From Thiotrichaceae bacterium (lineage in GTDB: Bacteria > Pseudomonadota > Gammaproteobacteria > Thiotrichales > Thiotrichaceae), in the NCBI GenBank assembly GCA_027024625.1, contig JALVRY010000305.1:1-12578 (forward strand): a DNA stretch of 12,578 nt. The letters are read 5' to 3'. The notes beneath the pieces are model-generated. The model searched no databases and was not told the origin of the DNA. It saw only the letters and a list, made by a program, of their open reading frames with translations. How positions within the stretch are numbered: position 1 is the first letter of the stretch; each line of letters begins with the position of its first letter. A program made the translations under genes and the position numbers. Below, one piece after another: positions 1 to 12,578 of the stretch.

Positions 1-526
1 GGTCTAAAGATAATAATAATGATTGGATTAACATGGATACATCATCCCGCTCTCGCGCATCCACTTCAAAAAGAGGAGAATTTAGTGACAGTTGATCCAG
101 CCATTTACGATAGTCTTGTAAATTTGGACTACGTTGCATATCCATTCGAGTGATACCAACAACCAACTGTTGCTTATCAATAAAGTCTCTAAAAGAATGG
201 GTATAAAATTTTAAGTCACGTAATGGATCAACCCGAGTATTATCAAGCAATAATATAAGTCCAATCCCTCCATTAGTCAGAATATCCCACATAAAGTCAA
301 AGCGTTCCTGACCAGGTGTACCATAAAGATGAACACGTTCATTATTACTCAGTTTTATTAATCCATAATCCATCGCAACTGTTGTATTCGCTTTCCGACT
401 TTTTGTCATGTCAGAAGCACTTTCATCCGTAGTGACAATCCCTATATCACTGATAGAAGAAATTGCTGTCGTTTTTCCTGCACCAACAGGACCTGTAAAA
501 ATTATTTTCCGATTTACAGCACTCAT
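1..526 (-). CDS. Small GTPase of the MglA/COG2229 type (3' end beyond window)
   Basis: This ORF starts at ATG 526 and reads leftward with no stop, so 175 residues are visible and the C-terminus lies outside the window. Seen in the protein: a Walker A/G1 loop GPVGAGKT (residues 12-19), a switch region TTVAMDYG (48-55), a G3-like LYGTPGQERF (67-76) and a G4-like TRMD (126-129). The usual Asp of the G3 DxxG motif is absent and the loop reads GTPGQ. This resembles the TVPGQ loop of MglA and is normal for this group of prokaryotic Ras-like GTPases. The family binds and hydrolyses GTP as a cytoplasmic switch, often for cell polarity, gliding or type IV pili. The gene begins 9 nt after the stop of the receiver-like gene and has no clear Shine-Dalgarno sequence, so coupled translation is likely. 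No roadblock/MglB partner is visible; one could lie past the left edge. The GTPase call is strong; the pathway is inferred. Confidence 0.88.
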   Translation of the reverse strand, partial: MSAVNRKIIFTGPVGAGKTTAISSISDIGIVTTDESASDMTKSRKANTTVAMDYGLIKLSNNERVHLYGTPGQERFDFMWDILTNGGIGLILLLDNTRVDPLRDLKFYTHSFRDFIDKQQLVVGITRMDMQRSPNLQDYRKWLDQLSLNSPLFEVDARERDDVSMLIQSLLLSLD

Positions 527-535
527 AGTCTGTTG

Positions 536-1915
536 TTATCCAAGTAGTCGGTTTAGCAAGCGTGAAAATAAACCACGGTTCTTATTTTGTGGTTTTTCCT
601 GTGTATGTTGTATCCGCGTTTTCAATTTATCTGGAGAATGTTCTATCAACCCTAAAACACACGAAGCATTATAAAAAGCAAAGACATAACGCTGGGGAAT
701 ATCAAGATTATGAGCTACTTCTAACATATTAAACGCGTCATTTGACCATAATGCTGAAATTCTAACCACATGTGGAAAGGTTTCTATTCTTGTGAAGTTT
801 GGCCAATGACGTAACATTACTCTTTTTTTCAGATCAACATTACGGTGCAATTTTCCAGACGACGTTAGCAACATGCTTGTCCAAATAAATCCCTCTAAAT
901 CATATACACCATTTGGCCTAGCTTCTGACACCTTATTCGCTGACTCTACCTCTTTTTCTGTCATGATGTGTATATATACATCTGCCTTTTTAACGGGTGT
1001 TTTGCAAAGATTCTCAAATTCATCAGACGTTATATCAACACTGCTGTACGCCTGATTAGCCTTTGGCATAAAATTAAAAATCACAGCCTGATATTTAATT
1101 TGCACCAATTGCTGAGACTGAATCGCTAATCTTAATGCATCTTGTAGGCTAGAAATTAAATAATTCTCTGGTGTGTAAAGAGCTAATTCACTTTTCCACG
1201 CAGCAACATTTTTAATGTCCTCTTCATTGCCACAAAGCTTCTCCCAGCGCTTTTGTTTTTCCTCTAAGGAAATAACAGGCTTACTTGACTTGGGCTTTAA
1301 AGATTTTGGAGCATTCTTTTGTAGCTTACTGGCAGATACTTCCCGTTGAGCTGGAGCTGAAGACTGCTTTTCCGTTTCAGTTACAGAAGCAACCAACTTT
1401 TTTTCCGGCCTCAGCATTTTTGGTGGTATAGCTGTCGGCTTCACAACTGGTTTAATAGCCTTCTTTTTTGCTTCATCAGCCAATGCTTTAATACTAAAAG
1501 CAGAAGTGGCCGAGGGTCTTTTAACCGCAGAAGACTCTGAAGAAGGAGTAGAGTGGGAAACTTCTGTTTGACTTCCCCCATCCTTATCCAATAACTCATG
1601 CACTTTTGCTGCGGCCTGAGTAAGTGATTGGATACTTAGAGGTTTAGCCAACCAAACTACATTTTCGATATCAACCTCATAAAAAGCCAATGCAAGCGTA
1701 GGCTTTTTATCAACCGCATTGGTTTTCTCCCAATTTTGCTTAGCATTTGGATGATCAAAATCAACGATGAAAATATCGGCATCAGCACTTCCTGTGACTG
1801 TGAATAAGCGACTGCCCGCTCCAGCAAAAAAGAATTCTAAAATCGCTTTATTGTGCGGACTGATATCCAGCAGGCTGACTTTTAAACTATTTTGTTTAGT
1901 AGTTATACCCTGCAT
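536..1915 (-). CDS. Degenerate receiver-domain protein with unrecognised C-terminal module
   Basis: 459 residues, starting at ATG 1915 with a good AAGGA 5 nt upstream. Residues about 11-110 look like a response-regulator receiver fold: LKVSLLDISP at the first strand, IFIVDFD (48-54, with D52/D54 where the phospho-acceptor would be) and LAKPLS (89-94, with the KP pair). The acidic pair at the start is reduced to a single D17, and the usual Thr/Ser strand reads LALAFYE, so phosphorylation is doubtful. Residues about 112-220 are a Ser/Lys/Ala/Pro-rich, low-complexity linker. Residues about 225-459 appear globular. A conserved-looking core at about 336-430 (GVYDLEGFIW..., LRHWPNFTR, DIPQRYVFAFYNA) resembles a winged-helix-like or protein-interaction module, but I cannot name the family. 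The gene sits between the FimV-like gene and the GTPase in one orientation, so it may be an adaptor or effector for the GTPase. It is more likely a protein-protein scaffold than a classical DNA-binding regulator. Confidence 0.8.
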   Translation of the reverse strand: MQGITTKQNSLKVSLLDISPHNKAILEFFFAGAGSRLFTVTGSADADIFIVDFDHPNAKQNWEKTNAVDKKPTLALAFYEVDIENVVWLAKPLSIQSLTQAAAKVHELLDKDGGSQTEVSHSTPSSESSAVKRPSATSAFSIKALADEAKKKAIKPVVKPTAIPPKMLRPEKKLVASVTETEKQSSAPAQREVSASKLQKNAPKSLKPKSSKPVISLEEKQKRWEKLCGNEEDIKNVAAWKSELALYTPENYLISSLQDALRLAIQSQQLVQIKYQAVIFNFMPKANQAYSSVDITSDEFENLCKTPVKKADVYIHIMTEKEVESANKVSEARPNGVYDLEGFIWTSMLLTSSGKLHRNVDLKKRVMLRHWPNFTRIETFPHVVRISALWSNDAFNMLEVAHNLDIPQRYVFAFYNASCVLGLIEHSPDKLKTRIQHTQEKPQNKNRGLFSRLLNRLLG

Positions 1916-1990
1916 GTTAATCCTTATTTTCCATTTCTAACTGCCCTTTATCACAATCGTAAGATCACTAATTAAACCCGTATTATTAAA

Positions 1991-2710
1991 TTACCAATCT
2001 TGAGACTCAATTTGAACTTGTTGCCAATCCTCAGAAAGCTCTACTCCAGCAGCCAAAAGCTTTTCTGTTGTACTTTCTAAGGAACTACGGTCACGAGTAT
2101 ACTGATAAATATTGAGCAATTCTTGTGCAACGTCAACATCTTGACTATTACGTGTTAACTCTTCTTCTAATATTTTTTGTGCTTCTTCAACCTGCCCATA
2201 CTCCAAGCAAGCTTGTGCCTCCTCAACTGCATTACCATAGCTTGCCACCTCCTCTTCTTCTATCTCGGTTGGAACAACTAACTTTTGAGATTCGCCTGGT
2301 AAACCTTGGTCTAACACCGAACCCGCTTTATATGAAAAGTCCTTGCGTTTTCCTGTTGATAACCATACCTCAAAATACGCAATATCTTTTGTTTCAAGTT
2401 CAGGCTTAACCAACTCCAGCATTTTTCTTCGTAAATCCGCACCATTATCACCCAGCGCAATAAATAAGTCCTGAATTGCACCTGCAAGAAATGCTTTTAA
2501 GCCATTATCCAAGCTAAGAAAAAGTCGCTGTGCATGAGCACGTAAATCTAAAGGAAAGCGTGTAATATGATGCGAATAATACTTCCACGCTTTGAGAGAA
2601 TCGTCATACAGCGCACCCACTTTCAACTGTTTTTGTGGAGACAATACGAAAGACACAGGTAACTCAGGAAGTGCATTTTGTTCTTTTTCAGAAAATATAT
2701 TGCCTAGCAT
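1991..2710 (-). CDS. FimV-like TPR-domain protein
   Basis: I place the start at ATG 2710 (239 residues). The frame stays open to a TTG at 2722, but an AGG touches that TTG directly, while an AGGTTGG sits upstream of the ATG at a workable distance. The C-terminal part (about 165-239) matches the cytoplasmic TPR segment of FimV-type pilus proteins: LEYGQVEEAQKILEEEL, LLNIYQYTRDRSSLES and a final EDWQQVQ, the pattern of two helix pairs followed by a terminal Trp. There is no signal peptide, LysM or membrane segment, so this is a short cytoplasmic protein and not full-length FimV. The N-terminal 150 residues are soluble, alpha/beta-looking and unrecognised, with an acidic EIEEEE hinge before the TPR part. 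It is the first gene of the leftward cluster; 75 nt without a visible terminator separate it from the receiver-like gene. FimV proteins help to assemble and localise type IV pili and polar regulators; a similar role here is inferred. Confidence 0.75.
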   Translation of the reverse strand: MLGNIFSEKEQNALPELPVSFVLSPQKQLKVGALYDDSLKAWKYYSHHITRFPLDLRAHAQRLFLSLDNGLKAFLAGAIQDLFIALGDNGADLRRKMLELVKPELETKDIAYFEVWLSTGKRKDFSYKAGSVLDQGLPGESQKLVVPTEIEEEEVASYGNAVEEAQACLEYGQVEEAQKILEEELTRNSQDVDVAQELLNIYQYTRDRSSLESTTEKLLAAGVELSEDWQQVQIESQDW

Positions 2711-3231: not shown

Positions 3232-3591
3232 ATGTTCTACCTGATTGCACAAATTGCATCATTCTTATTAATTGCAACCGTATTAGGCGTAGGATTAGGG
3301 TGGTGGTTTGCAAAAAACAAACAACCAGCAGAAATTGAATATGATGAAGATAAAGCACTAATCGAACATAAACATCGCCTCGACAAATGCCACAAAGAAA
3401 ATGCAAAACTTAGAAGAGAGGCCAAACAACATAAAGAACAGTTAGAAAAGCTGAATGCACAAATAAACATTGCTGGTGATGATAATTTGGCAGAAAAACT
3501 TGAAGCAGCCAATGCTCAAATACAAGCACTCATGGATGATGTACAAATGCGTGACGATATGATTATCGCACTAGAAAAAGATCGTCAATAG
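3232..3591 (+). CDS. Small membrane-anchored coiled-coil protein, unknown function
   Basis: 119 residues, with GGGA 7 nt before ATG 3232. Residues about 4-26 form one hydrophobic membrane segment ending in GWWFAKNK, so the N-terminus is probably a signal anchor with the body in the cytoplasm. Residues about 38-119 are highly charged (Lys, Glu, Asp and Gln) and have heptad-like spacing, as expected for a long coiled coil broken near AGDDN (81-85). The single Cys is C53. The architecture recalls YhcB-type proteins with an N-terminal membrane segment and a coiled coil, but I see no specific family match. It stands alone on the plus strand, convergent with the Nudix gene 28 nt away, with no terminator hairpin in that gap. 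It is a real gene judging by its start site and composition; its function is unknown. Confidence 0.75.
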   Translation: MFYLIAQIASFLLIATVLGVGLGWWFAKNKQPAEIEYDEDKALIEHKHRLDKCHKENAKLRREAKQHKEQLEKLNAQINIAGDDNLAEKLEAANAQIQALMDDVQMRDDMIIALEKDRQ

Positions 3592-4574: not shown

Positions 4575-5552
4575 TTAAGTCGCTTGGTAATAAATATTCT
4601 GCGGGTGATTGGCTTGAGCAAAGAAAAACCAGCGCTCAGCAATTAGGCCGATATACTGAACCAAGGCTGCTAGCAAGAAGACTATGCCATTATTATTAAA
4701 CATACCAACTGCGATTAAAATAAATGGAACAATAAATACCAATAACAAAAAGCTCCATTTTACTAATTGGACGATATTTTCACGCTGTCCATGGAAGTAT
4801 TCACGGGTGTTAAATGATCCCCCCATTGCACCTTGAGCCATCTGTACAATTTTAGGATGACGAATACCAATCGCTGATTTTGCGGTTGTTTTTGGTTTTA
4901 AACGTGAGTTACGAATTAACGAACTAATGCGTGTAATGGCTGCGACAAAGGTAAGTAATAATGCCCAGCCTGCAAATAGGCTGATTAATTCTGGTGCTTG
5001 AATCGTGGCATAAACTGTTGCGATACTAAAACCTGATGCCATTCCAAGAAGAATAAAATTTACTAAGGTTAACGGTGTTGCCCATTCTTGCAGGAATCTA
5101 ATCGCTGCATATATCATTCCCGTGCAAACATACAGTGCGATGCAGACGAATGTGCCGATCACACCAATAATCAATGAGAATGAAATCGCTAATTCAGGGC
5201 GTAATTGAACAACAGTAAAATCCCAACCCATCCCCTGAACAACCGCATAGATGAAGACGACTCCCATAAATGCAGGCAAGGCGATAACTTCACGCGATAA
5301 CCATGAGGTACGCCACATTGCCGCCGCTCGCCATGCTCGCTCTGGTCGTCCAAGATGGAATACGGATGCGATCAAACCTGCAACCAGCAGAACGAGGACA
5401 ATGACTGCACCCATCGCATAGAAAAAGCCAGACTCTTTTACAGGTACTAATTCAACTGTAGAGTAAGTTTGAGCGGTTACCAAAGCTAAAAATAAGCCCT
5501 GCCCTGCTCCAATAAGGGTTGTTAAAAATATTACAGAAAATGCGGGATGCAT
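4575..5552 (-). CDS. soeC: Sulfite-oxidising complex membrane anchor SoeC (DmsC/NrfD-like)
   Basis: 325 residues; AGAGG lies 7 nt before ATG 5552. About eight hydrophobic helices are visible (roughly 8-28, 43-65, 88-108, 122-145, 155-178, 186-210, 266-288 and 290-310). Between helices 2 and 3 is HLGRPERAWRA followed by SWLSRE (67-87), the hallmark of the DmsC anchor family. The basic stretch at about 212-265 between helices 6 and 7 is an extramembrane loop. The protein anchors SoeAB at the inner membrane and is expected to pass electrons from the SoeB iron-sulfur clusters to the quinone pool. It is the last gene of the operon, ahead of a strong terminator. A 123-nt gap separates it from soeB, unlike the near-overlap of soeA and soeB. 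The family also contains anchors of DMSO and polysulfide reductases; the assignment to Soe depends on SoeA having no Tat signal. Confidence 0.88.
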   Translation of the reverse strand: MHPAFSVIFLTTLIGAGQGLFLALVTAQTYSTVELVPVKESGFFYAMGAVIVLVLLVAGLIASVFHLGRPERAWRAAAMWRTSWLSREVIALPAFMGVVFIYAVVQGMGWDFTVVQLRPELAISFSLIIGVIGTFVCIALYVCTGMIYAAIRFLQEWATPLTLVNFILLGMASGFSIATVYATIQAPELISLFAGWALLLTFVAAITRISSLIRNSRLKPKTTAKSAIGIRHPKIVQMAQGAMGGSFNTREYFHGQRENIVQLVKWSFLLLVFIVPFILIAVGMFNNNGIVFLLAALVQYIGLIAERWFFFAQANHPQNIYYQAT

Positions 5553-5610
5553 GGTGTTGCCTCTATATAAATTTTTTTAAAATATACTGTTGTTTTTTCA
5601 ATGCAAACTT

Positions 5611-5648
5611 CACAGAGAAAATACATAAATAACTAAGATGCCTCTGTG
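5611..5648. repeat. Inverted repeat in the soeB-soeC gap
   Basis: CACAGAG (5611-5617) and CTCTGTG (5642-5648) are exact reverse complements separated by 24 AT-rich nt. They lie in the only sizeable gap of the soe operon. The long loop and the lack of a U-tract argue against a terminator. It could be an mRNA stability or processing element that sets the soeC level, or it could be chance. Confidence 0.3.
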
Positions 5649-5675
5649 TTACTATTCAACAATAATTTATAACTT

Positions 5676-6404
5676 TTAAATCCAGCTTGAATCTTCTAAT
5701 GTCATATCATCATCAGAAGGCTTGGTGAAGTTCTCATCTTTAAGTGGGTTATCCACACGCGTGAGGTCTTCTTTTGTCACTGTTGGTTTCACTTTTCGAC
5801 GTGGCAAGTAGTGGTTTGCTGGGTTAGTGCCCCATTCGGGCTGTAACTGATAGCCACCTTGCTCTCGAATAATGGTAGATACTTCTGAGTCCGCATCATG
5901 CACATCGCCAAATAAACGAGCTGTCGTTGGGCAAGCCAAGACGCAGTCTGGTTTGCGTCGCTCTTCTGGCAGATTCGTATCATAAATACGATCGACGCAA
6001 AGCGTGCATTTTTTCATGACCTTTTGTTCTTCGTCGATTTCTCTCGCACCGTAAGGACAAGCCCATGTGCAGTATTTACAGCCGATGCATTTATCATAAT
6101 CGACTAAAACAATACCATCTTCTTTACGCTTGTAACTTGCACCAGTCGGGCAAACAGGTACACAAGGTGGCTCTTCACAATGCAGACAAGACTTAGGAAA
6201 ATGTACCGTTTCTGTATTTGGATAATCTCCCACCTCATAAGTTTGCACACGATTAAAAAATGTTCCCGTTGGGTCTTCAGTGTACATATTGAAGTCAGAC
6301 ATTGGCCCTGCTGAACCTGATGTATTCCATTCTTTACATGACGTTACGCAAGCACTACAACCAACGCAGACGTTAAGATCTATAACTAATGCTAACTGAG
6401 TCAT
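5676..6404 (-). CDS. soeB: Sulfite-oxidising complex iron-sulfur subunit SoeB
   Basis: 242 residues. Sixteen cysteines fall in four ferredoxin-like groups: C13/16/19/23, C73/76/81/85, C106/109/112/116 and C133/136/154/158. The protein should therefore carry four [4Fe-4S] clusters, as in DmsB/PsrB/NrfC-type subunits. It has no signal peptide and is cytoplasmic. It relays electrons from the molybdenum centre of SoeA to the anchor SoeC. The ATG at 6404 is one base after the soeA stop codon, and its GGGG Shine-Dalgarno sequence lies within the soeA 3' end, so the two subunits are translationally coupled. The C-terminal 60 residues after the last cluster motif are acidic and variable, as is common in this family. 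Confidence 0.92.
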   Translation of the reverse strand: MTQLALVIDLNVCVGCSACVTSCKEWNTSGSAGPMSDFNMYTEDPTGTFFNRVQTYEVGDYPNTETVHFPKSCLHCEEPPCVPVCPTGASYKRKEDGIVLVDYDKCIGCKYCTWACPYGAREIDEEQKVMKKCTLCVDRIYDTNLPEERRKPDCVLACPTTARLFGDVHDADSEVSTIIREQGGYQLQPEWGTNPANHYLPRRKVKPTVTKEDLTRVDNPLKDENFTKPSDDDMTLEDSSWI

Positions 6405-6405
6405 A

Positions 6406-9300
6406 TTATTTCCCCGCCATTTTTAGTAGTCGTTGGAAGAAACCTGTGCCACTTCGATAACCATTTGGACGCTTAATGCGAGACATCATACCGGGGTACA
6501 TAGGCAATGTTTTAAACTGTGGTGATGTTACTGCCGGCTCATTATCTTCCGCTTTGTACACTTTCACACGCACGTCATACCAGCCGGCTTGCCCCGTGAC
6601 AGGATCAGAGTTAGAAATCATCCCCTCTCTGGTCTTGCAAGGTAGTTCTTCTGCAATTAAGTGGTTAAGCAAGAAACCTTTGTTGGATTCATTGGCTTTC
6701 TTATCTAAACCCCAAGCACCCGATGCTTTACCAATTGCATTCCATGTCCACACCGTACCGGGTTCAACGGCTTCTGAGAATCGACAAATACAACGCACTT
6801 TACCGTGCATGGATTCTACCCAAATCCAATCGCCATCTTCAAAGCCATTGTGATCCCCTACGCTGGGGTGCAAATATAAGTGATTATGTGCGTGAATCTG
6901 GCGCAACCATGCATTTTGCGAATCCCATGAGTGATACATCGCCATCGGACGCTGGGTAATTGCACTGAGCGGATACTCGCGGCGGTTAGTCATCTCTACT
7001 TCTAGCGGCTCATGATACATGGGCAATGGGTCGAAATAGGTTTCAACACGCTTGCGTAAATGCTCGGGCGGCTGTTTGCCTTTGCGTTTGCCTTGTGCGG
7101 CTAAACGGAAATCTTGGAAAATCTCTGAATAGATTTGAATTTGAATCGGCTCAGCATAACGCGTTAAGCCATGATGTCTTGCCCACTCCAAGTAACCCTC
7201 ATTCCAGTTACGCATATACTGATACGATTTAGGTAATTTATGGTGATATACGCAGTTGTTGTTTGCGTACATTTCCCACTGGTTTGAGTTTGGCTCGCCC
7301 TTCATGGACTTTTCACCCGACTTTCCACGCCAACCTGCTAAGAAGCCGATACCAGAACCGGGGGCTGTCTCATGATTGACAATAAAATCAGGATAATCAC
7401 GATATTTACGCTTGCCCTTATCGTCAACAAAGGCTTTTAGACCAAGACGTGAACCCAACTCAATAATCACTTCTTGGAAGGGCTTACAGTCACCTGTTGG
7501 CGGAACAACAGGAACACGGACAGAATCCACAGGGCCATCATATTCTGATATTGGACGATCCAACATCGACATTACATCATGACGCTCAAGGTAAGTGGTA
7601 TCGGGGAAAATTAAATCCGCAAACTGGGTTGTTTCTGATTGGAAAGCATCACAAACAATAATATAAGGAATCTTGTATTCGCCATCTTCATCCTTATCGA
7701 CCAACATTTCACGCACTTTGCTGGTGTTCATGGACGAATTCCACGCCATATTTGCCATAAACAGCAACAGCGTATCAATTTTATGCGGGTCGCCACGCCA
7801 TGCGTTGGTAATCGCGTTGTGCATTAATCCGTGTGCTGATAAAGGATGTTCCCATGAAAACGCCTTATCCAAACGGACTGGCTCACCTTCACTATCCACA
7901 AACATATCATCAGGCGATGCAGGGAAGCCAAGCGGCATACCATCCAATTCTGTATTGGGCTGCACGGCTTCAGGGCCTTTGGGTGGCTTGGGGCAAGGGG
8001 GAATTGGACGTGGGAATGGAGCTTTGTGGCGGAATCCACCGGGGCGATCAATCGTGCCAAGTAGTGTCATCAAAATCGACATATTACGAATCGCATGATA
8101 ACCATTTGAGTGCGCCGCTAAGCCACGCATGGCATGGAATGCAACAGGATTACCCGTAACAGAATCATGCTCTTCACCCCAAACATCTGTCCACGAAATC
8201 GGCAATTCGATTTTATGATCACGTGCCATAATGCCCATTTCGTAAGCTAAATTACGAATTTTGTCGGCAGAAATGCCTGTAATTTCGGCTGCCCATTCAG
8301 GTGTATAATCTTTTAAACGATCCGTAAGTAGCTGGAAAGCTGTTTTAACTTTTGTGCCATCTTCTAACTCATATTCACCCAATAAGTAAGGATTAGCACC
8401 ACGGTTCTGACTAGGCACGGCTTTATCTTCATCACGATCCCACCAGAGTTTATTTTGTGGGTCGACACAGCTCTCACGGCGATCTTCTGTCGTACGTGAG
8501 AATAAGCCGAATTCATCACTTTCTTCGTCTTGATTCACTAATTCTGCGGCATTGGTGTATTTGATAAGGAATTCACGATCGAATAGACCTTCTTGAATTA
8601 ATACATTATTCAATGCCATAAACAAGGCACCATCCGTACCGGGGCGGATTGGAATCCACTCATCTGCAATCGCTGAATAACCTGTACGAACTGGGTTAAT
8701 GGAGATAAAACGTCCACCATTTTTCTTAAAGTGGGATAACTCGATTTTTAACGGATTGGAATGATGATCTTCCGCCGTGCCGATCATAATGAATAATTTA
8801 GCACGTTCTAAATCAGGGCCACCAAACTCCCAGAATGAACCACCAATGGTGTAGATCATTCCCGCTGCCATGTTGACGGAGCAAAAACCACCGTGTGCCG
8901 CATAGTTAGGTGTACCGAATTGTTTGGCAAATAATCCCGTTAATGCCTGCATTTGGTCACGCCCTGTGAACAAGGCGAATTTTTTAGGGTCGGTGGCACG
9001 AATATTAGCAAGACGTTCTTCAACTATATCAAAGGCCTCATCCCAAGAAATAGCCTCGAAGCTACCTGCTCCACGTTCTGTGCCTTCTTTACGCTTTAAT
9101 ACTTTAGTCAAACGCCCTGGTGAGTATTGCTTCATAATACCCGATGAGCCTTTGGCACAAATAACACCCTTATTCAGAGGATGATCAGGGTTGCCTTCAA
9201 TATAACGGACTTCACCCTTTTCTAAGGTAACATTGATACCGCAACGGCAGGCACACATATAGCAAGTCGTGCTTTTGACTTCGATATTTTGTTTCGACAC
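6406..9300 (-). CDS. soeA: Sulfite-oxidising enzyme catalytic subunit SoeA (molybdopterin)
   Basis: 964 residues, starting with GTG at 9300; AGGG lies 8 nt upstream. The N-terminus has a [4Fe-4S] motif, C13-x2-C16-x3-C20-x27-C48, and then the molybdopterin oxidoreductase core. C140 in HGGFCSVNMA is the probable molybdenum ligand, as in the polysulfide/thiosulfate reductase branch of the DMSO-reductase family. The dinucleotide-binding C-terminal domain begins near residue 775 (YPLSAITQRP, then HNHLYLHPSVGDHNGFEDGD). There is no twin-arginine signal peptide, so the enzyme stays in the cytoplasm. This fits SoeABC of Allochromatium vinosum, which oxidises sulfite to sulfate there, and argues against the exported Psr/Phs/Dms enzymes. 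It needs a bis-MGD cofactor. It is the first gene of soeABC and is preceded by a 286-nt divergent control region. Polysulfide reductase is the main alternative. Confidence 0.9.
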   Translation of the reverse strand: MSKQNIEVKSTTCYMCACRCGINVTLEKGEVRYIEGNPDHPLNKGVICAKGSSGIMKQYSPGRLTKVLKRKEGTERGAGSFEAISWDEAFDIVEERLANIRATDPKKFALFTGRDQMQALTGLFAKQFGTPNYAAHGGFCSVNMAAGMIYTIGGSFWEFGGPDLERAKLFIMIGTAEDHHSNPLKIELSHFKKNGGRFISINPVRTGYSAIADEWIPIRPGTDGALFMALNNVLIQEGLFDREFLIKYTNAAELVNQDEESDEFGLFSRTTEDRRESCVDPQNKLWWDRDEDKAVPSQNRGANPYLLGEYELEDGTKVKTAFQLLTDRLKDYTPEWAAEITGISADKIRNLAYEMGIMARDHKIELPISWTDVWGEEHDSVTGNPVAFHAMRGLAAHSNGYHAIRNMSILMTLLGTIDRPGGFRHKAPFPRPIPPCPKPPKGPEAVQPNTELDGMPLGFPASPDDMFVDSEGEPVRLDKAFSWEHPLSAHGLMHNAITNAWRGDPHKIDTLLLFMANMAWNSSMNTSKVREMLVDKDEDGEYKIPYIIVCDAFQSETTQFADLIFPDTTYLERHDVMSMLDRPISEYDGPVDSVRVPVVPPTGDCKPFQEVIIELGSRLGLKAFVDDKGKRKYRDYPDFIVNHETAPGSGIGFLAGWRGKSGEKSMKGEPNSNQWEMYANNNCVYHHKLPKSYQYMRNWNEGYLEWARHHGLTRYAEPIQIQIYSEIFQDFRLAAQGKRKGKQPPEHLRKRVETYFDPLPMYHEPLEVEMTNRREYPLSAITQRPMAMYHSWDSQNAWLRQIHAHNHLYLHPSVGDHNGFEDGDWIWVESMHGKVRCICRFSEAVEPGTVWTWNAIGKASGAWGLDKKANESNKGFLLNHLIAEELPCKTREGMISNSDPVTGQAGWYDVRVKVYKAEDNEPAVTSPQFKTLPMYPGMMSRIKRPNGYRSGTGFFQRLLKMAGK

Positions 9301-9903: not shown

Positions 9904-11169
9904 CTAACCAAACATTCCCTTCAACATAAAGAAGAATAGGATAGAAAGCAAAGCACCGGCTGGTAATGTCACAATCCATGACATAAAGATATTACCCACC
10001 ACTCGCAAATCAATCGATGCAATACCACGAGCAAAACCAACTCCTAATACAGCACCCACAAGCGTATGTGTTGTTGAAATAGGGATACCGGTATACGATG
10101 CTAATACCACCGTTGTTCCTGCTGCAATCTCAGCAGAGAAACCACGTGTAGGCGTTAACTCTGTAATCTTTTTTCCTACCGTTGCAATAACATGATAGCC
10201 AAATGTTGCTAAACCAATGACGATACCAATACCACCAACTAGCAATACCCATGCAGGCAAACTAGATTTTGCTGCAATTTCACCACCCGACGAGGCAATA
10301 CTGATAACCGCAGCCATCGGACCTACTGCATTCGCCACATCATTGGAACCATGTGCAAATGCCATCGCTGAAGCAGTAAAAATCATCATGACACCAAAGA
10401 TTTTCTCCACATTGGAATAAGCAAACCCCTTGTCATCTTTTTTATCAATCTTCACTCTACGGATTAGGAAAGTACCTAACAAAGCGATAAGCACACCAAT
10501 TGCAATCGCAATCATAAATCCTTGGTCTTCAGACAAATCTAAACCAATATGTTTTAAACCTTTTTTAAGCGTCACTAATGCAATAATAAAACCCACCATA
10601 AACAAATAAGCAGGACCATATTTAATCGCATTTTTTAATGGATCACTGGTATTCAGAATAAGCTTTTGAATACTGGTAAACACCATGAAAGAAATCGTAC
10701 CTGCGAGTATAGGTGACACCACCCAACTCATAACAATCGTTCCTACTTTTGCCCAGTTAACCGCATCTACACTCACACCCACTGCGGCAAAACCAACCAC
10801 TGCACCAACAATACTGTGTGTAGTAGAAACAGGCCACCCCTTGCGAGAAGCAATTAACAACCACGTACCCGCTGCAAGTAAAGAAGCCAACATGCCCCAA
10901 ATCAACAAATCTGGATTTGAGACGAAGGAATCTGCTTCAATAATACCTTTACGGATCGTTTTTGTTACCTCACCTCCCGCAAGATAAGCACCTGAAAACT
11001 CAAAAATGGCCGCAAGCACCACGGCTTGTTTTAAAGTAATCGCTTTCGAACCAACCGATGTTGCCATTGCATTCGCGACATCATTTGCACCAATACCCCA
11101 TGCCATAAACAGGCCAAAAGAGGCGGCAAGGATAATATAAATCGTATTTGTATCTTGTAGAAATTCCAT
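9904..11169 (-). CDS. pit: Inorganic phosphate transporter, PiT family
   Basis: 421 residues. AGGAG lies 7 nt before ATG 11169 and overlaps the TAG stop of the DUF47 gene. The two inverted halves of the PiT fold are visible: GANDVANA (27-34) with VSTTHSIVGAVVG (114-126), and GSNDVANA (274-281) with ISTTHTLVGAVLG near residue 365. These are the family's phosphate- and cation-binding signatures. About ten to twelve membrane helices fill the rest, with a charged cytoplasmic loop at about 236-256 (RRVKIDKKDDKG). The protein imports phosphate, probably as a metal-phosphate complex, with H+ or Na+. It is co-transcribed with the upstream DUF47/PhoU-like gene, a common Pit partner, and the operon carries a candidate PhoB box. 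Confidence 0.93.
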   Translation of the reverse strand: MEFLQDTNTIYIILAASFGLFMAWGIGANDVANAMATSVGSKAITLKQAVVLAAIFEFSGAYLAGGEVTKTIRKGIIEADSFVSNPDLLIWGMLASLLAAGTWLLIASRKGWPVSTTHSIVGAVVGFAAVGVSVDAVNWAKVGTIVMSWVVSPILAGTISFMVFTSIQKLILNTSDPLKNAIKYGPAYLFMVGFIIALVTLKKGLKHIGLDLSEDQGFMIAIAIGVLIALLGTFLIRRVKIDKKDDKGFAYSNVEKIFGVMMIFTASAMAFAHGSNDVANAVGPMAAVISIASSGGEIAAKSSLPAWVLLVGGIGIVIGLATFGYHVIATVGKKITELTPTRGFSAEIAAGTTVVLASYTGIPISTTHTLVGAVLGVGFARGIASIDLRVVGNIFMSWIVTLPAGALLSILFFFMLKGMFG

Positions 11170-11179
11170 GATTTTTCTC

Positions 11180-11860
11180 CTAACGAGCTAGCATGAGTTG
11201 TAAACGACTACCCACCTTCTGAGCCGCATCCGCAACACGACCCACCCACTCAATCAAACGGTAAGTAAACATAACGTCTGTCGCACGTAACTCATCTTCC
11301 AAAGTGAACAACACATCACGCAGTTGACGCTGTAACTTATCCGTATCGGATTCAATCTCATCCAGCTTGCTGATCATTTCTTCTACATGATCAACTTCTA
11401 AGCCACGAAAGCCCGTTTCAACCAACTCATCTAACTCATGGATAATATTGCTAGCCTGCTCAACGGCATCGATACAACGCTGTCCATAAGGAATAAATAA
11501 TTCATGCATCTCCTTCGGCAATGTCATTTTTCGCCCTAAAATTAACGATGCGATGTCTTTTGCTTGGTTTGCAATACTGTCTTGCATCAACAATACATCC
11601 AACAAATCACGGCGATCCACCGGCATAAACAAACCCTTTGGCAAATGATGGCGTAACTTCTTTTTCATCACATCTGCTTCATGCTCGCCCCTTGTGATTC
11701 TTTTAGCTGCTGTTTCAATCTTATCCATATCCGCATCAATCACACCGGCAAATAATGGCTCAAGATTCTGAATACACGCATAAACAACAGCCATATGCTG
11801 CTGAAGTGGACTAATAGGTGATGTACCAAACAGCCCCGACATATAAGGTTTTGCCACCAT
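11180..11860 (-). CDS. DUF47/PhoU-like Pit accessory protein (TIGR00153 type)
   Basis: 226 residues, with GAGG 8 nt before ATG 11860. The length and sequence fit the TIGR00153/DUF47 family: an all-helical PhoU-like bundle with an early GLFGTSPI-PLQQHM segment, EHEAD (78-82) and DLLDVLLMQD...ANQAKDI. A C-terminal IEWVGRVADAAQKVGSRL precedes the end. The acidic and His residues on the helices are typical of the metal-binding clusters of PhoU-like folds. It is cytoplasmic and has no signal peptide. It is thought to modulate the adjacent Pit transporter. It is the first gene of a two-gene operon with pit (10-nt gap), divergent from phoB. Confidence 0.9.
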   Translation of the reverse strand: MVAKPYMSGLFGTSPISPLQQHMAVVYACIQNLEPLFAGVIDADMDKIETAAKRITRGEHEADVMKKKLRHHLPKGLFMPVDRRDLLDVLLMQDSIANQAKDIASLILGRKMTLPKEMHELFIPYGQRCIDAVEQASNIIHELDELVETGFRGLEVDHVEEMISKLDEIESDTDKLQRQLRDVLFTLEDELRATDVMFTYRLIEWVGRVADAAQKVGSRLQLMLAR

Positions 11861-11946: not shown

Positions 11947-12578
11947 ATGCCAACAATCTTAATTATTGAAGATGAAAAGCCAATTCGAGACATGTTCCGC
12001 TTTGCCATTTTAAAAACGGAATTTAAGTTACTAGAAGCAAAAGATGGCAAGAGTCTATGGGAAGTATTAGACAAAAATATACCTGACCTAATTTTAATGG
12101 ATTGGATGCTCCCCGACACCAACGGCATTGAATTAACAAAACGATTAAAACAAGACGAAATCTACGCCGACATTCCCATTATCATGCTAACCGCACGCAT
12201 TGAAGAAAGAGACAAAATCACAGGACTAAATGCAGGCGCAGATGACTATGTAGCAAAGCCCTTCTCCCCCCTAGAACTCATTGCCCGCATAAAAGCCGTA
12301 TTACGACGTAGTCAAAAAGATAGCCATAACAACGAATTACGCTGTGATGATTTAGTCCTCGATACTGCTAGCCACAAAGTCACGCTACAAAACTCCCCCC
12401 TAGAACTCGGTCCCAAGGAATACCGTCTACTCAAACATTTTATGAAAAACCCCAACCAAGTATTCACTCGTTCACAACTCATGGATCGCCTATGGGGTCG
12501 CAACACCTATGTGGAAGAACGCACAGTTGATGTCCATATCGGTCGTTTGCGCAAAGCCCTTGCTCCTTGGCATTACGA
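11947..12578 (+). CDS. phoB: Phosphate regulon response regulator PhoB (3' end beyond window)
   Basis: 210 codons are visible from ATG 11947; a typical PhoB has about 229, so about 20 residues lie beyond the right edge. The receiver domain (1-115) has E8/D9/E10, the phospho-acceptor D52 in LILMDWMLPD, T82 in MLTAR and K104 in AKPFS. The C-terminal OmpR/PhoB-type winged helix starts near residue 130 and includes LGPKEYRLLKHF, RSQLMDRLWG and the recognition-helix region EERTVDVHIGRLRKAL. ARIEERDKITGLNAGADDY is characteristic of PhoB. The ribosome-binding site is weak (GAGAG about 10 nt upstream). It activates the Pho regulon under phosphate starvation; a phoR sensor-kinase gene is expected just past the window. 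Confidence 0.92.
   Translation, partial: MPTILIIEDEKPIRDMFRFAILKTEFKLLEAKDGKSLWEVLDKNIPDLILMDWMLPDTNGIELTKRLKQDEIYADIPIIMLTARIEERDKITGLNAGADDYVAKPFSPLELIARIKAVLRRSQKDSHNNELRCDDLVLDTASHKVTLQNSPLELGPKEYRLLKHFMKNPNQVFTRSQLMDRLWGRNTYVEERTVDVHIGRLRKALAPWHY

Follow-up and report, generated by a model that had tools for sequence, protein, structure and literature searches.

A Group 3 MglA-type operon with a TPR gene in a Thiotrichaceae bacterium: a variant of known, little studied systems

Among described systems, the closest to the genes considered here are those of beta/gamma-Proteobacteria that Wuichet and Søgaard-Andersen named Group 3 MglA. In the passages of that study that deal with them, a Group 3 system consists of an MglA GTPase, one or two MglB proteins, and an unknown protein whose N-terminus is receiver-like and whose C-terminus, after a variable linker, is winged-helix-like (PMC4316618). 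The same passages define the group by a lysine-less G4 motif together with a DAR G5 motif, a combination shared with Group 2, and give the GTPGQ form of the G3 motif as also common to Groups 2, 4, and 5 (PMC4316618). For Snodgrassella, the sections of a report on its Group 3 genes state that mutation of an orphan mglB (mglB-3) alters motility that its authors call type IV pilus-dependent (PMC11112851). For Myxococcus, the passages on SgmX in PMC7519303 describe a tetratricopeptide repeat (TPR) protein that acts with MglA-GTP for type IV pili. The subject of the present study is a stretch of 12,578 nucleotides (the window) from a Thiotrichaceae bacterium, which is contig JALVRY010000305.1 (C305) of an incomplete metagenome assembly (GCA_027024625.1; 83% complete, 6.6% contaminated, 490 contigs). 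At one end of the window lie genes for a TPR protein, a receiver-like middle protein (MID), and a small GTPase. Judged by its overlap with a second contig, the window carries the opening three genes of a larger operon of the Group 3 MglA type, which the contig end interrupts.

The second contig, C424, comes from the same assembly; it overlaps the window end, with 241 of 242 bases identical, and continues into genes for a 217-amino-acid (aa) protein (U217), a 120-aa roadblock protein (ROBL), and a 580-aa FimV-type protein. Gene order in this continuation and in the relative locus L006 is TPR, MID, GTPase, U217, the MglB-type ROBL, and a FimV paralogue; in L006 the whole order is on one contig and the GTPase is complete. 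The roadblock protein of C424 matches Robl_LC7 with an E-value of 8.3e-16. The GTPase and U217 genes overlap or almost touch, the median distance being −1 nt in the order and −4 nt in the outer loci of the class. A first-pass annotation of the window had reported three same-strand genes, which were found again in place as minus-strand open reading frames (ORFs), and a spacing of 9 nt upstream of the GTPase, which is the number of bases between the MID stop and the GTPase ATG. It had also proposed looking leftward for a roadblock/MglB gene, and such a gene is present on C424 and in L006.

The GTPase motifs were read directly from the window: the P-loop is GPVGAGKTT, G3 is GTPGQ, G4 is the lysine-less TRMD, and G5 is DAR. 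In G2, read by eye as ANTTVAMDYG, a threonine replaces the arginine of Group 1. Among the 84 block GTPases scoring over 150 bits, GTPGQ is found in 82 and DAR in 80. With the GTPase placed by these motifs, the operon core agrees with the Group 3 description. The GTPGQ loop reported earlier for a Ras-like GTPase is thus as described; a GTPase of the Myxococcus MglA kind it is not, having GTPGQ and no TVPGQ. The statement that no named system holds this set was wrong for the core of GTPase, receiver-like protein, and MglB, because Group 3 MglA systems were described computationally in 2014, as the relevant passages show (PMC4316618). The additions to that core are the FimV-related TPR module, an amphipathic, membrane-anchor-like tail on MID, a near-neutral winged-helix-like part, and variants with sensors or kinases.

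Conservation was followed at two levels. The order search covered 63 genomes, 60 with a match; wide regions from 56 of them, together with the window, gave 57 orthologous loci. Four paralogue loci were also fetched in the order, G011, G019, and G023 were left out, and of L006 and L037, apparently one contig (8,612 bases each), L037 alone was counted. The outer set comprised 40 loci from 38 genomes, taken mostly best matches first out of 59 MID carriers beyond the order. MID is present in 60 of the 63 genomes of the order, including all 46 good ones, and a profile search finds it in 62 of the 369 class genomes sampled; named relatives include Thiothrix and Thiolinea. At 51 of the 57 order-level loci, all five genes of the block TPR-MID-GTPase-U217-ROBL are present, on one strand and in this order. 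A looser completeness count gives 52 of 57, and the five loci that fail it are the window, L079, L086, and L088, which reach contig ends, and L087, which is without TPR and U217. Complete blocks, all in order, make up 17 of the 40 outer loci.

Across the 369 genomes, U217 is found in 40, every one of which carries MID. The TPR gene, counted where its N-terminal domain is included, occurs in 36 genomes, and 34 of these also carry U217 (Fisher 2e-39, shared ancestry ignored); the two co-occur in 20 families. Only profile matches reaching the N-terminal domain (model start ≤50) were counted as TPR carriers. The excluded rows are mostly long ORFs, at least three are short and not FimV-looking (G070, beside MID; G159; G351), and one more, G341, adjoins MID; TPR carriers are possibly undercounted because these short or MID-adjoining rows were excluded. 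By these searches the gene set is conserved across the class, beyond chance, and the three genes stay together in the blocks of both locus sets, a point that the first-pass annotation had proposed to test.

The TPR module is, by profile search, homologous to the inner TPRs of FimV. The TPR-family profile matches the internal TPR region of FimV loci with a best domain E-value of 1.3e-11 (30 loci searched), a reversed-sequence control gave zero matches, and in eight genomes (G076, G081, G083, G133, G136, G145, G185, G410) this profile and the FimV search share an ORF of the same length in the same place. The label "FimV-like" rests on this profile search because generic models match TPR relatives at least as often as FimV_Cterm (TIGR03504) does: LapB matches 11 of 39 and PilW 9 of 39, and TIGR03504 matches 7 of 39 weakly (E up to 10, best 2.5e-4). 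The window protein itself has a sub-threshold Pfam TPR match, none to TIGR03504, and none to LysM in the domain search. A true FimV was considered and rejected, given the absent LysM match, the protein's own N-terminal domain, and its length of 239 aa. Of the earlier description as a cut-down cytoplasmic FimV-like protein, the FimV-like TPR is borne out.

FimV-type genes also adjoin the operon. The C-terminus of the one after ROBL on C424 passes the TIGR03504 cut-off (53 bits), and the source genome encodes its main FimV elsewhere, likewise over that cut-off. A FimV-type gene stands near the operon on the same strand at 44 of the 57 order-level loci (profile ≥30 bits, within 12 kb).

MID has zero Pfam or NCBIfam matches at E up to 1, and its domains were read from an AlphaFold model, which shows a receiver fold at residues 8–112, then a linker of low confidence, and finally a C-terminal module modelled with confidence. 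D52, the acceptor position, and K91-P92 do not vary in any of 111 relatives. In the Mg-binding acidic pair, assigned by eye, D occupies position 17 in 47 of 111 sequences, including that of the window, and position 18 is mostly I (82 of 111); position 77 is S in 82 and A in 29, the window protein having A. A phosphorylatable response regulator was therefore rejected despite D52 and K91, since the second acidic residue is replaced and the window has A at 77. The earlier claim of an atypical phosphorylation site holds for the degenerate pair but not for D52 and K91-P92. The C-terminal module had been called unrecognised, as the domain databases bear out, although a winged helix was already predicted there in the 2014 description of such proteins (PMC4316618). 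The winged-helix part is suggested by weak structure matches, and MID is weakly most similar to SEA/GATOR1 chains. The C-terminal helix appears in the model as one resembling a membrane-targeting helix, and tail amphipathicity is above the 95th percentile of shuffled tails in 109 of 111 relatives.

Variants of the block point to candidate inputs. PAS-protein matches occur in the fetched stretches of 23 of 63 scanned order-level loci and 9 of 40 outer loci, and PhnD-like matches in 23 of 63 and 10 of 40. At L039:10002-11285 and many of L040–L060, the roadblock gene is followed by genes for a PAS protein, which we take to be Aer-like in L039–L060, and for a PhnD-like binding protein. In the window's own genus (L005, L037, L038), the FimV-type gene stands directly after ROBL, without PAS or PhnD. 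Protoglobins were found by profile in six of 40 outer loci and zero order-level loci, three being confirmed with Pfam; the gene lies between U217 and the roadblock gene at L139:5029-5694, L155:4347-4937, and L156:9056-9649, and protoglobins were detected by profile in the stretches L128, L144, and L148. In three outer genomes the GTPase of the block carries a Ser/Thr protein kinase domain fused to its N-terminal side (L127:1596-3089, L157:8033-9622, and L158:5344-6846), and in L162 a kinase adjoins MID, with a weak GTPase-profile match.

The operon probably helps cells choose the pole at which to build surface-crawling pili. In the arrangement we favor, with a probability of roughly 0.55, it would control polarity or type IV pili through a GTPase switch, MID as adaptor, and the TPR protein as effector. 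The GTPase would cycle between GTP and GDP; its GTPase-activating protein (GAP) would be the MglB-type protein, either by itself or together with U217. MID would be bound to the membrane by its amphipathic tail and would present or sense the GTPase, its receiver serving as an interaction or signal-input domain and its winged helix as a protein-binding domain. The TPR protein would couple the switch to components of the pole, for example FimV landmarks and pilus ATPases, in the way SgmX does for MglA-GTP, and the output would be the place or the time at which type IV pili are active. The separate PAS, PhnD-like, protoglobin, or kinase domains of many relatives may supply environmental signals.

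The same features have been, or could be, explained otherwise. The receiver plus winged helix of MID would suit a transcription factor whose DNA binding is controlled by the GTPase and the receiver-like domain, an idea that comes from the 2014 discussion of these proteins (PMC4316618). A few single MID members give chance-level helix-turn-helix matches in Pfam, and the winged-helix region 336–440 is slightly positive (mean +1.7). However, the recognition helix is near neutral (mean charge +0.28), and this, with the amphipathic tail, would argue against a plain transcription factor, which we consider unlikely. The PAS, PhnD-like, protoglobin, and protein kinase domains in or beside the blocks would suit a conservon-like, general signalling hub in which redox, oxygen, or ligand sensing acts on metabolism, the envelope, or cell division and not on type IV pili. 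In actinobacteria, conservons that include a Group 2 MglA have roles in development and drug resistance, according to the passages on them in PMC4316618. Such a hub seems rather unlikely given the FimV-like TPR gene, the adjoining FimV-type gene, and the presence of PilT above cut-off in all 40 MID carriers tested, compared with 33 of 40 non-carriers (Fisher 0.012, phylogeny-confounded). The comparison covered 40 of the 62 carriers and, from the 307 non-carriers, 40 chosen by handle number, not randomly, and the 40/33 split was read from individual rows against a tally of 73/80.

Several observations weigh against the polarity and pilus role as set out above. The type IV pilus link is weak because most of the non-carriers tested also have PilT, and a literature search found no experiment on these operon genes, the nearest data being those on the orphan Group 3 mglB of Snodgrassella (PMC11112851). 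The block is incomplete at 23 of 40 outer loci, some of them interrupted by contig ends, and among the 62 MID carriers 22 are without U217 and 28 without TPR. Outer loci L129, L139, and L148 keep TPR-MID-U217-ROBL without a GTPase, and their genomes gave zero matches in a search with the L006 GTPase; the switch would therefore not always be needed. Outer MID tails are amphipathic less often (18 of 38) than order-level tails. U217 matches Robl_LC7 weakly, in 22 of 31 members (E up to 10, best 0.0012), and a profile–profile comparison with the MglB-type family found no similarity; with moderate confidence, U217 may be the second MglB of a two-MglB system.

A bolder analogy, which we regard as quite improbable, is that the locus is a bacterial, one-operon counterpart of the Ragulator/GATOR1 logic of eukaryotes, in which roadblocks and a membrane-anchored winged-helix protein would set the nucleotide state of a Ras-like GTPase in response to sensors or a kinase, with a FimV-like TPR effector passing the outcome to polar pili. 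If true, the operon would be a self-contained circuit from sensor to polarity, with oxygen, redox, ligand, or kinase input. MID is widespread at 62 of 369 genomes, yet experiments on Group 3 MglA systems are almost absent from the literature found.

Table 1. Positions of the operon genes, their domains, and the divergent neighbor in the window.
Feature	Position	Strand	Remarks
Group 3 MglA-type small GTPase	2..526	-	Last few residues missing at contig end; motifs GPVGAGKTT / GTPGQ / TRMD / DAR
MID: receiver-like N-terminus, linker, C-terminal module, 459 aa	536..1915	-	
MID residues 8-112: receiver (pseudo-receiver) domain	1580..1894	-	D52, D54, K91, P92 invariant, 111 relatives
MID residues 113-212: low-confidence linker, presumably disordered	1280..1579	-	AlphaFold model
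MID residues 213-440: alpha/beta module, then winged-helix-like part (about 363-428)	596..1279	-	AlphaFold; winged helix from weak structure matches
MID residues 449-458: conserved amphipathic C-terminal helix	542..571	-	Model confidence about 67; R452, L457 invariant
TPR protein, 239 aa: own N-terminal domain and FimV-like TPR	1991..2710	-	ATG start; TTG at 2722 possible
TPR residues about 155-232: repeat homologous to internal TPRs of FimV	2015..2248	-	Profile search
Small coiled-coil protein, divergent from operon, N-terminal hydrophobic stretch	3232..3591	+	

The coiled-coil gene often adjoins the operon in order-level loci and is probably outside it. Farther along the window, positions 4575–9300 encode an NrfD-like membrane protein, an iron-sulphur protein, and a 964-aa molybdopterin oxidoreductase, which we take to resemble the sulphite-oxidising SoeABC set. 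Presumed phosphate-transporter-like and PhoU-like genes occupy 9904–11860 and 11947–12576, and a PhoB-like response regulator adjoins them. A paralogous second GTPase with 54% identity and a C-terminal extension is found at L004:315-1367 (G000:C312), followed by genes for a small protein and then a dCache-HAMP protein.

Among known systems, the Myxococcus MglA-MglB-RomR-SgmX module is alike in having a GTPase, a roadblock GAP, a receiver-domain protein, and a TPR effector for type IV pili, as far as the relevant passages of PMC7519303 and PMC4316618 describe it; the likeness is one of component type. It differs in its Group 1 GTPase, with TVPGQ and an arginine finger, and in an mglA that lies apart from its partners' genes. 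Actinobacterial conservons (CvnA-D) share a GTPGQ-class GTPase, a roadblock protein, and an unknown partner. They have the histidine kinase CvnA and no response regulator in the account given by the conservon passages of PMC4316618, whereas the operon genes found on the window, on C424, and in L006 include no CvnA-type histidine kinase. FimV/HubP landmark proteins have homologous TPR repeats, and one of their type adjoins the operon, but the TPR protein differs from them in the traits for which a true FimV was rejected. The Group 3 mgl operon of Snodgrassella has one mglA and two coupled mglB genes, as may be the case here; it differs in a third, orphan mglB, and the sections of PMC11112851 on these genes mention no TPR or receiver-like partner. 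Closest are the Group 3 systems of 2014, alike in GTPGQ, the lysine-less G4, DAR, a neighbor with a receiver-like N-terminus, a variable linker, and a putative winged-helix-like C-terminus, and one or two MglB proteins; the FimV-like TPR, FimV paralogue, sensors, kinase fusions, and membrane-type tail go unmentioned in the Group 3 passages of that paper (PMC4316618). The present locus is best read as a Group 3 MglA operon with a TPR gene, a variant of known, little studied systems. Its TPR partner, the adjoining FimV-type gene, and the membrane-type tail offer what the transcription idea of 2014 lacked, a link to polarity that is direct and testable.
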